From assembly GCF_020382885.2 (NCBI RefSeq), contig NC_058502.1:10877950-10941949 (forward strand): a DNA stretch of 64,000 bases. Direction: 5' to 3'. Within the stretch, counting starts at the first letter, position 1. Each line of letters starts with the position of its first letter. Made by a program: the position numbers and the translations under genes. The notes under the pieces are model-generated. The model did not search any database, was not told the DNA's origin, and saw nothing but the letters and a program-made list of their open reading frames with translations. Shown here piece after piece: positions 27,435 to 39,955 of this stretch. Source of the DNA: Scatophagus argus (Eukaryota > Chordata > Actinopteri > Scatophagidae).

Positions 27435-30400
27435 ATGGCGTCCTTGAAATATAAGCATTTCCACAGGAAAAACCCGAATGCAAAGCTTGTCTTGCTTGTC
27501 AGTGGTCTGCGGAAGGAAAATGCCTATCTGAAGAAGACCCTGGTTGAGCTGTCTCGTCAACATTCAGAGCATAATAAGCTATTAGAGGTAGACTGAGTCA
27601 GATGACCCTGTTTCTCTGGTATTTATCCAACATGAGTCAACTAACTAACTACTACTCACGCTGTACCATTGACTACCTAATGATGTCAGTGAGATCTGTG
27701 TGGGTTTTTTTTGTTTTGTTTTGTTTTTTTTTTCATTTCAGGGTTTTATTGTCTTGCAAAAATGGACCATTAGTGAAACAACTTATCTTTCACTGTCTTT
27801 TCACAGAGATTCCTCTCTCTTGAAACTGTTAGACTGGAGAAGTGCCAGCCACTGATGACCAAAGACGAGAGGACTGATTTACCATCAGACCAGCTGAAAA
27901 ATAAAGAAGTGAAGCAGACAGACGTAGTGAGTATAAGGGTAAAGAAAAGCATATCCAGTTACTCCAGAGAGAGATTGAAAACAATAACAAGATTGTGAGC
28001 GTCTCAGCTAGTCAGTATCTGAAGAATGATGATGATGTTACAGGGAAGAAGGTATAGTGTGGCGTGATTTTGTCATAAATGAGTGTAGTATTTGAGGAAA
28101 TAAAAACAAACTAAATATCTTGATGAGCCAGAGACCGTTTTATAGATACTACTATATAAAACAATATGTTTTTAGTTGGAAATAACAACAAATTTATAAA
28201 ATGTGGAAGTTGGGGGTTATGATTTGCCAACCCTGTCCATCTTACCAGTGTTACACCACTAGATGGCAGCAGTTGTTTGTAAGTGTCAGTGTTTAAGGAA
28301 CGAAGAGTACTCCCTAAAAACATAGAGTATGTCCTCATACAGAGCATGTCATCGCAGTCACATGTTTGATTAAGTGGAATCAAACATGTGGGCCTTGTCT
28401 AGGAATGTCACAGTGCAGTCCTCTTTATTAAAGCAGTTAAAGTGGATTGTTCATTCACCTTTGTGTAAGGCTGTTTCCTGTTGTCATATAGGGTTCCACT
28501 TCAGATGATTTGGCCCCGACTAACAACGTGACAGAGCTCCAAAATCACCTCAGCGATGTAAGTGCTGTGTGGTTGACACGAAGCTGGAAATGGTCCCTTC
28601 TGCTTGACCTTTCTGTATTTTTCTTTACTTCTAATTTTAAGGCCTGTATGGGTGCATTTGTTTCTAAGTGAAGATGTGCGCCTATGTACAGTAGTCAGAT
28701 TTTTGCTTTCAAGCCTCCCCTCTGTCAAAACCCTCTTTCTGTCTTTTTCTTCTATGTCCTTCTCATTCTTTTATTCAATCTCCCGAGGCCTTGGAGAAGA
28801 ACAAGCAGTGGCTGGAATATGACCAGCAGAGAGAGGCCTATGTGAGGGCAATTCTGGCCAGAATGTTATGGCTGGAGAAGCAACTGAACGAAGCCAATCA
28901 GGCCCTCTCACAGCAGCACAATGAGGACCATTCAGATGGTGAGCCAGAGGGGCAGTGGGCAGTGGGCACTCACCACTGGGGCAACAAGGGGCAGCAGACT
29001 GTCACAACAAGGTTTTTAAGATATCAAGATTGCCCTGGAATAGCCTATTATGACAGAATCTGTAGCTTGCAGTACACTGTCAGAATTATATATTTCTTAC
29101 TACGTGGTATGTGTTGCTGTACATCTTTGCATATGTCAATGTGTAATTTTTCCTTTTTTTAAAAAAATGTTTCACTTTCAACTTTTGCTTGTCCCATTAC
29201 AGAGAATGAGCAAATAAGCCAAATGCAGGAGCACTATGAAAGTCTTCTCCAGAAATCCAAAGACGAGCTGGAGGTGCTCAGGGAGCAGGTTGACATGACC
29301 CACCAGAACCTGATAAAAACCCAAAAATTGTATGACTACTGCGAAAAAGAATGAATAATATGACCCTGATTAAGTTGGAGAAGGGTAGAATGGTAGTCAG
29401 CTACTTTACATGACAGACCCTGTTGATATGTAGGTGCGAGGAAAGGCAGAGTGAGGTGGAGGAGCTCAAGCAGCTGCTGCAGACTGAAGAAATGAGCAGA
29501 AAAAGTGCAGCAGATGATCACTGTGCTACCCATGAAGAGCAACATCTGAGGGATGAGCCCAAAGACCTCCAGCACAGACTGGATGAGGAAAAGTGCAGGT
29601 CAACCAACTTTGAGCTGCAGGTACAGTGTCATTGAAAAATTAATCTAGTAAGTAGGGGGAAGAAAATTAAAGGTTAATTTAAATATATATATATATATAT
29701 ATAAAAAGACAGATATGACAGACACCCTCACTTTGTTTTGGTCCCTTAGTATTAACTAGAAATTTAGAGTTGTTGCAAATCAACCTATCTTAAAAATGGT
29801 ACAAGTTAATTACCCCAGGATCGACAACAAATACCAGTCTTCACACAAACAAAGGATATCATTTTTTATATATGAAAAATTCCCTCATATATTGTATGTT
29901 ATTCTCCATTCTAATCTTAATATTATTACTTTTAGATCAAAATTTCTTCACAAGACCTTGAAGACGAGAGGCAGGATTGTTCGTATTTAAAGAAGCAAAT
30001 GGTCAGAGTCCTGAAGGCGCTGCGAAAAAATAAACACTCTGTGACAGCACAGTCAAAGGTTGGCATGAATAGTGCAAAGGATTAGTTTTTTATTTGTTAG
30101 TATGTTCGAACTTAAGCAATGATTAACCTTAAAGCTGCATTCATTATTAATTAAACAGCCCACCTCAGAGCAGTGACACTGAAATATTGATTTGTGCAGC
30201 TTTAAAATGATAGAACTACATGAAAAGATTATTTTAATCAGAGTCTTGCTAATCAAACTGCTGGATGGCTCCATTTATATTAGAGAGTCCAGCTGGATAG
30301 CCATTCATGTGAAGCAGCACACCCACCGTCTTCGCCTTCCAGAGACAGCCTGACATCCTCCCTGAATGGCAGCTTGCTGAATGAAAGCTTCCTGGAATGT

Positions 30401-30475
30401 CCCAGCTGCCAGACTGCGTATCCTGCCAGTCAGTACAGAGAACTGATGAACCACCTAGAAATCTGTCTGGACTGA
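27435..30475 (+). CDS. cep55: Centrosomal protein 55, with an apparent frameshift
   Basis: CEP55 is a coiled-coil dimer that recruits ALIX and TSG101 to the midbody for abscission. Coding exons: 27435-27587, 27807-28051, 28492-28557, 28788-28938, 29203-29329, 29434-29620, 29936-30058, 30284-30475. The start is ATGGCGTCC at 27435 (MASLKYKHFHRK). The ESCRT-binding hinge is clear (ALEKNKQWLEYDQQREAYV, with the Trp and Tyr used for ALIX/TSG101 contact), as is the C-terminal zinc finger (ECPSCQTAYP, then HLEIC). Most of the rest is heptad coiled coil. Exon 27807-28051 is 245 nt: it enters in one frame (RFLSLETVRLEK) and leaves in another (EKHIQLLQREIENNNK), so one base seems missing near 27901-27960. 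With that base the product would be about 414 aa (human 464). As it stands the frame stops at TGA near 27996. Sequencing error, polymorphism or gene decay are all possible. Confidence 0.9.
29681..29703. repeat. (TA)n microsatellite in a cep55 intron
   Basis: About eleven TA units in the intron between cep55 exons 29434-29620 and 29936-30058, which is otherwise AT-rich and without coding signal. Confidence 0.85.
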
Positions 30476-30561: not shown

Positions 30562-31659
30562 CTACGGTGTTGAGTCAGTGAAGATTGTGCGTCTGAGTAT
30601 TTAAAATGAACCCACAAAAGTTTGATTAGCTCTAAAATGCTTCCAGTGGATTTTGACATCTCCTGACTTTCTTGAGCACTACAGTGAGATTCATTTAGGA
30701 ATATATTATACAGGTCATCAGAAATTCAGTTTGATCAACATTTCGGTTTATGATCACCCAGTTTGTATGATACTGTGTTCAAGTATGCTGCTGCAGGTCC
30801 TTGACCCCCTCCCAGGTTTCCACAGTGTTCAAACCAGATGAATAGCTCAAAACAGCTTGTGTAAGGTAATCCCTTTCCTGTGCTATTTAAGGACATGGAT
30901 TAGTATTGCTATCCAGCAATATGGAGAGTCAGAGGTCTGTGCAGTGGCTATGAGCTTTGAAAGAGAACGTGACACCAAGGGTTAGCCTAGACTAATAGCT
31001 TTAGAAAAAGTTGCTAATATGGTTTAGATCCCTCCTAATTGTGTGGGCCTGTGCCTTCCAGGAGCTTTTCATATGGAAATGCCTTCATGGAAAGTTATAA
31101 TATGAGCTCAGCCTGTCTGAGACGCAGACTTAGAGCCAAGAGGGTGTTTTTCTTTTGGCCTGTTAGATTATCAAAACAAGGCATGACAAAATATTTTAAG
31201 AGAAAGGAGGATGTGTCTTGGCTAATTTATAATAAATATTTCTTATCTCCTACTTAATAAATCCTTAAACATTTCATAGCCTGTTTTCAGCCAATTACTA
31301 CATCATGACATCATGACCAGGAAGTGAGCCTGGTAATCTAATTCACAGGGTAAATAAAAGTGGTGTCAAACTAATTAGATCTCAGCAGATAATTTGAGAT
31401 TTTCACAGCATCACTTCAACAGAGTGTAGTGTGTTGTAATTAAATGTAAACCTTTTCTTAAAGAGGTGATCCAAGAAAACTTAACTACACAGTGTAAGAC
31501 AAAAGCACAAAGAACATCTTGTAATATTTGACTCAGCTTCTCTGGTATCAATTTATGCCTTTTCAGATGCTTTTGCCCATTGACCTTTCTGGCATTAAAT
31601 TAGTAAGCATATCAGATCTAGATCTTTTTCAGTCTATATGGATATTAACCCTCACACCC
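30562..31659. other. Spacer between cep55 and the ffar4 relic
   Basis: No coding exon, RNA gene or clear repeat seen on either strand. Short open frames (30653-30841, 31039-31257) have no recognisable family. The segment could hold the former ffar4 promoter, but nothing in it shows this. Confidence 0.5.
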
Positions 31660-32083
31660 ACTCACTTTACATTAGAAACTTATTTTTGCTTGCTCTCCAA
31701 GCTGCACAGCTTAAATCATGTTTCCATCCCTATTGTTGACACCCCGGCTATCACTGTTGTCTTGCTGATCTCTATGGCAAGCTGCAACCCTGGTGACCTG
31801 TGAACACAGACTTCTGGCCAACAAGACTGTCCTGACCCTCAGCTTGTTTGTTGCCAGTCTGTTGTTTGTCAGCATGATCGTTGCACTGTGGTGGACTATG
31901 TGGTTGACCCTGGGGTATAAAGTCTGTCACACTGCTTTGAGTCATCTGTATGGGCAGCTGTGTCACAGTCACTACCCTGGCCTCCATCAGTGTGGAGAGG
32001 GTCCAGGCTATGCTTTGGCTGCAGATTGTGCCCACTTTAAACTGCAGTATTGTGACTGTCTTTCTCTTGCTCACCTGCAATTG
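31660..32083 (+). pseudogene. ffar4: Decayed ffar4 (free fatty acid receptor 4 / GPR120), first exon
   Basis: FFAR4 is a class A GPCR for long-chain fatty acids. Three pieces in different frames line up in order with its N-terminal half as I recall the human protein. First, ETYFCLLSK and PIVDTPAITVVLLISM (31675-31777) match the N-tail and TM1. Second, after a frame change, LVTCEHRLLANKTV and LSLFVASLLFVSMIV (about 31786-31890) match intracellular loop 1 and TM2, with GYKVCHTAL (ending near 31939) at the start of TM3. Third, after another shift, GSCVTVTTLASISVERVQ (from 31953) matches TM3 with its (E)R switch motif. That frame ends at TGA near 32083. Two frame breaks, a missing stretch in TM1/loop 1 and the stop show it is not functional. 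The place, between cep55 and pde6c on the plus strand, is where human FFAR4 lies. Confidence 0.75.
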
Positions 32084-32517
32084 ATGTATTTCTTTCCCAT
32101 TTATTTTTGAGTCTTTTCCACAGAAATGCATGTATACATGCACTCTCACTTGGCCAGACTCAAGTGAAGAGAGTGTGTGAAATTTAGCCTTTACTGCCCT
32201 GTGCTTCCTTTGCTTCAATTTTCATAATTGTGGTCCGTTACAGCAAAATATTACCAGTGAGCTCATTGTCTTTTTTTTTGATTTGCAAAGATGCAAAGTG
32301 AAGAAAGAGACTAAAAGATAGTCGAGTTTTTTTGGCTGCAGGGGATCCTTGTCACACTTTTAAAGAAAGACCTTTTTAAAAGATAAAATTCAATGGAAAA
32401 GCAGTTTTAGTTTATCTATACTGGAACGACTTTCCTATCCTGTCTGTGATGCGCCTTTGTTTGCGGGTTGTAGGTGATGGCTTTGACCTTGAGACCACTA
32501 GCTCTTACTGGGGGCTA

Positions 32518-32640
32518 GATGAAGCTCTTTACAGGTCTTTTGGTCCTGGAGCTCTCTTTATTTCTTGTTCTTCTGTTTGGTGACATTCATGCACTCAATC
32601 CCAGACTCTGCTGTGGCACCACGGAGAAAAGAACATTGTG
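32518..32640 (+). pseudogene. Possible remnant of ffar4 TM6-TM7
   Basis: One frame reads KLFTGLLVLELSLFLVLLFG followed shortly by HALNPRLCC. In FFAR4, TM6 begins RLFRTLFLL and TM7 holds SALNPILYN. Order and position after the better 5' remnant fit, but about 35 residues between them would be missing and similarity is weak. It may be chance hydrophobic sequence. Confidence 0.3.

Positions 32641-34013: not shown

Positions 34014-39955
<5,942 letters not shown>

Follow-up and report, generated by a model that had tools for sequence, protein, structure and literature searches.

FFAR4 (GPR120) is a receptor through which long-chain and omega-3 fats are sensed. According to the available part of the survey by Roy et al. 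2023 (PMC10029227), ffar4 is present once in several percomorphs and twice in channel catfish, gilthead seabream is listed among the carriers, and the gene was not found in zebrafish or salmonids, so that fish lineages without ffar4 are already known. In the large yellow croaker, a farmed percomorph, FFAR4 is reported to be anti-inflammatory in the available text of PMC8222784. Here we describe an ffar4 locus in the spotted scat Scatophagus argus (Scatophagidae), located in a window of 64,000 nucleotides (the whole stretch of DNA analysed; NC_058502.1, positions 10,877,950 to 10,941,949 of the forward strand; all coordinates below are those of the window unless a contig is named). We are highly confident that this locus is a decayed, non-processed ffar4 remnant adjoining cep55, as the gene does in other percomorphs, and that S. 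argus likely has no working FFAR4. No report of an ffar4 relic in this species was found among the openly licensed PMC papers listed, and as far as these show the relic is new for S. argus, although the absence of ffar4 as such is already known in fishes.

The open frames of the locus were pieced together, with X at the breaks, and used as a protein query against ∼5.8 billion proteins, and 36 matches at E≤0.001 were obtained from 155 candidates. FFAR4 or FFAR4-like was the name given to 22 of the 36, the remaining 14 were unnamed, hypothetical or generic GPCRs, and none was named as another receptor; a species missing among these 36 matches should not be read as lacking the gene, since gilthead seabream, a carrier, is unnamed there. 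The best match was FFAR4 of Centropristis striata (P0121; E 5.5e-42, 51% identity to the pieced query). When the same Centropristis protein was compared with the window by tblastn, a check that the first-pass annotation had asked for with fish Ffar4 proteins, five plus-strand pieces were found between 31638 and 32538 (joint E 2.5e-43). A frame-tolerant alignment was also made, in which a profile built from the 22 teleost FFAR4 rows of alignment A1 was fitted to the DNA with frame breaks and gaps allowed. The locus scored 471, whereas 100 first-order shuffles averaged 44 and reached 63 at most, and the best non-overlapping tile of the window on both strands reached 70. The three FFAR4-like peptides from which the locus was originally recognised were found in the sequence, in the order, strand and frames that had been claimed for them. 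Single-frame pieces were too short to be decisive against solved structures: the three matches of the TM2-TM3 frame alone were all to human FFAR4 but weak (E 0.23-0.35), and the TM3 frame alone gave no match at E≤10.

The remnant spans 31638-32313, with weaker traces to ∼32620 (Table 1). Because a loosely penalised alignment produced noise past ∼32313, the extent was taken from a stricter one. The interval first assigned to the pseudogene, 31660..32083, does contain remnant, but its limits do not hold, since the ATG lies at 31638 and the exons continue past 32083. From the start codon the remnant reads MDINPHTHSLYIRN, where the majority of teleosts have MDIDPHTHLLHLRN. The exon 1 piece (31600-32070) scored 355 and the exon 2 piece (32070-32295) 114, whereas 200 shuffles of each reached no more than 60 and 52, respectively. 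Exon 2 measures 133 bases, and 132 are expected from the Centropristis protein. A well-preserved exon 3 was considered and dropped, this part being barely recognisable, as all sequence past 32295 scored 53.2 against a shuffle maximum of 55.8 (200 shuffles); the possible TM6 and C-tail traces are suggestive only. Within the exon 3 zone, 148 bases at 32371-32518 have no alignment to FFAR4.

Table 1. Features of the ffar4 locus and its neighbours in the window.
Feature	Position	Strand	Basis or remark
cep55, upstream neighbour	27435..30472	+	matches Scatophagus argus CEP55
exon 1 remnant, ATG through TM1-TM3 into TM4	31638..32066	+	profile alignment
TGA of the first-pass annotation, poor FFAR4 match	32082..32084	+	4 of 18 codons match; probable intron placement
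intron 1, relic of 3' end, pyrimidine-rich, ends CAG	32086..32123	+	sequence; agrees with junction of mammalian isoform P0056
exon 2 remnant, loop 2 and TM5	32124..32256	+	profile piece score, length
nonsense TGA replacing invariant Trp	32178..32180	+	aligned rows
intron 2 relic, 34 bases, GTGAGC...GCAAAG, directly after KILQ junction	32257..32290	+	sequence
exon 3 start remnant, third intracellular loop, TGA at 32299	32291..32313	+	alignment, weak alone
possible TM6 (MKLFTGLLVLELSL) and C tail traces	32519..32620	+	tblastn and profile; not significant alone
pde6c, downstream neighbour	34014..39955	+	22 exon pieces by eye, ATG at 34014

At least two frame breaks had been claimed for this locus, and four were seen. 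The profile alignment places three of them in exon 1, near 31680 (net -5 bases), 31780 (net -11) and 31940 (net -2), together with an in-frame deletion of 9 bases at 31876; the fourth, one added base, lies in exon 2 near 32220. TM4 lacks its second half, and the greater part of loop 2, of intron 1 and of exon 3 is missing. The TGA in exon 2 is a clear coding stop of the remnant, at a position where all 25 aligned rows having a residue carry Trp. The stop reported earlier near 32083 is present as a TGA, but the sequence around it has a poor alignment to FFAR4 and is probably residual intron 1, so that this TGA should not be taken for a coding stop.

The position of the remnant between cep55 and pde6c, noted when the locus was first recognised, was upheld by the CEP55 EABR domain upstream (E 1.4e-15) and an open pde6c reading downstream. 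The cep55 gene, when spliced by eye, was identical to S. argus CEP55 isoform X2 (P0157) at 371 of 374 residues, the residues outside these falling at joints, and the next species was Siniperca chuatsi, at 72%. A cep55 segment of Siniperca chuatsi CEP55 falls at 27930-28060, where it apparently shifts frame near 27970, and is absent from isoform X2. The downstream gene reads through 846 residues without an internal stop and has a GAF domain scoring just below the Pfam cut-off; we take it to be pde6c, following the name given by the earlier reader and its homology. Among other percomorphs, the locus tags of cep55 and ffar4 are consecutive in Perca fluviatilis and Channa striata, Eleginops maclovinus has one tag for both, and gene models of Etheostoma spectabile and Perca flavescens (P0255, P0262) are fused, with 7tm_1 and EABR in one protein. 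These fused public models, which contain most of an FFAR4 receptor, are probably annotation errors, because the two genes are closely spaced. Together with the locus tags, they imply that the place of ffar4 in percomorphs is next to cep55. The human gene order is CEP55-FFAR4-RBP4-PDE6C.

Splice-site relics were found at both FFAR4 intron places, with junctions as in two mammalian isoforms, from which the intron places were taken: P0056, in which exon 2 (43 residues) is skipped, and P0002, which adds 16 residues after KILQ. A closer similarity to FFAR4 than to other GPCRs, the intron places and the adjacency to cep55 seen in relatives all speak for orthology with FFAR4. In a processed pseudogene the introns would be cleanly gone and the genomic place would be new. 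Here the intron relics argue against a processed copy (retrocopy), which was rejected on that ground, and the neighbours are kept.

Further copies were sought with Centropristis FFAR4 in the 570.7-Mb genome (48 contigs, the window being on C10), giving 90 matches at E≤10 among the 115 of 382 candidates that were scored. The two with the best identity (56 and 59%) are the ffar4 locus itself, and the other 88 are 21-35% identical, so that the whole-genome check for another copy found no second ffar4. Since 115 of 382 candidates were scored, this absence is valid for the present assembly at that sensitivity, and S. argus therefore likely lives without an FFAR4 sensor. Channel catfish, with two ffar4 genes in the available part of PMC10029227, provides a precedent for the idea that a working ffar4 lies elsewhere and the locus is a copy of it, processed or duplicated, but the intron relics at the locus, the neighbours matching those of other percomorphs and the lack of any further genome match above 35% identity among the candidates scored leave this idea very little probability. 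Instead, the ffar4 remnant has the properties of a unitary pseudogene: disabling lesions, with the frame broken four times, a single clear nonsense codon, TM4 cut to half and exon 3 mostly gone; no functional copy within the sensitivity of the genome search; and an orthologue in relatives, represented by the 22 full-length teleost rows of alignment A1, as judged from their sequences, activity being reported for the large yellow croaker (PMC8222784).

Related receptors are present in the genome. Human FFAR1 gave 41 matches at E≤1e-6, and the four best (L021-L024), at 31-37% identity, are open frames on C9 and C17 that look like receptors of the FFAR1-3 types, two of them ∼4.7 kb apart on C17. 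When two of the four were compared with solved structures, one was FFAR2-like and the other was closest to FFAR3, then FFAR2 and FFAR1. Part of the FFAR4 role may be taken over by receptors of the FFAR1-3 types or by other lipid sensors. The genome also contains tandem arrays of class A GPCR frames at C19:15.61-15.83 Mb (19 rows of the Centropristis FFAR4 search) and C11:2.76-2.88 Mb (13 rows), which to judge from their layout are perhaps TAAR or odorant receptors.

Loss of constraint was evaluated on 177 codons in seven segments, hand-picked as confident from the looser and stricter alignments. The remnant agreed with the teleost majority at 122 of these codons (0.689), and intact fish, each compared with the majority of the others at the same codons, had a mean of 0.895 and a range of 0.751-0.943. 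Among columns invariant across 26 rows, 11 of 39 were altered in the remnant, counting the stop as one, and leaving out each of 22 intact fish in turn gave 0-2 altered among 39-41 invariant columns. When only fish were considered, 15 of 64 invariant columns were altered in the remnant, and 0-5 of 64-69 in intact fish. The altered invariant sites include that aligned to Asp85 in TM2, a position with a general role in class A receptors, and that aligned to human Arg99. Arg99 of human FFAR4 is named as a likely partner of ligand carboxylates in the available part of PMC7916689, and was not found in the available part of PMC8564095. The lesions, together with the 11 of 39 altered invariant residues, uphold the earlier claim that ffar4 has been lost at this locus.

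The amount of drift was compared with neutral simulations that started from intact fish sequences and used the codon use of pde6c, with 300 runs per distance and substitutions only. The observed identity fell inside the central 95% of runs at neutral distances of 0.10-0.16 per site, and outside at 0.08 and 0.20. At 0.12-0.14, 14-16 of the 64 fish-invariant sites changed in the simulations and ∼1.5-1.7 stops arose, compared with 15 and 1 in the remnant. The remnant thus fits ∼0.13 neutral substitutions per site, and the loss looks old. Neutral rates are roughly 2-5e-9 per site per year, and at such rates a distance of 0.13 would correspond to some 25 to 65 million years, a figure that shifts if constraint persisted partly for a time or if the lineage is a fast one. 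Because this would place the loss tens of millions of years ago, the initial suggestion that it was fairly recent is unsupported.

The same comparison bears on whether the locus still functions, as an RNA or as a short truncated protein. The start codon and the first 14 codons are recognisable, 10 of the 14 agreeing with the majority, in favour of such a function, but the frame is broken after these 14 codons and the alteration of fish-invariant sites fits neutral drift, making residual function highly improbable. Least probable of all, and scarcely credible, is an intact ffar4 whose apparent breaks are errors of sequencing or assembly, for although the evidence comes from a single assembly, the adjoining pde6c is open throughout and, besides the indels, invariant residues are substituted, including the human Arg99 site, which is not the product of assembly indel errors.

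Returning to a decayed ffar4 gene, the following history may be proposed. A first inactivating change, no longer identifiable, would have been followed by apparently neutral drift, during which exon 1 would have accumulated small frame-breaking deletions. One deletion may have taken out half of TM4 together with most of intron 1, the Trp in TM5 would have become a stop, one base would have been gained, and most of exon 3 would have been lost. Presumably, no receptor protein is made from the locus.

If FFAR4 is absent, the effects of omega-3 fats in the scat must use other routes, and the species could be used as a natural comparison when FFAR4 function is studied. That the loss of ffar4 is linked to diet and lipid sensing, as had been suggested for this fish, is a guess at present. 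We regard it as rather unlikely that all members of the scat family share the loss and that ffar4 disappeared several times in parallel among fishes that feed on plants and detritus, the scats being one such case; if this were so, the scat would be a natural knock-out of omega-3 sensing.

The remnant resembles percomorph FFAR4, such as that of Centropristis striata, in the order of its segments, its exon junctions and its place adjoining cep55, and in addition to the identity obtained with the pieced query (51%), its mean identity over confident codons is 64%. Unlike percomorph FFAR4, it has a broken frame, a nonsense codon, missing parts and altered invariant residues. The bat GPR84 pseudogene, as described in the available part of PMC9508565, is similar in that a fatty-acid GPCR was lost through nonsense and frame-shifting changes with conserved regions affected; it differs in concerning another receptor and lineage, and 11 species were compared there and one here. 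Zebrafish and salmonids are likewise teleost lineages without ffar4 where the gene could be expected. In those fishes the gene was not found, and the available part of PMC10029227 names no relic, whereas in the scat the relic is visible, so that one case of the patchy absence of ffar4 from fish gene lists becomes a loss with readable and datable traces.
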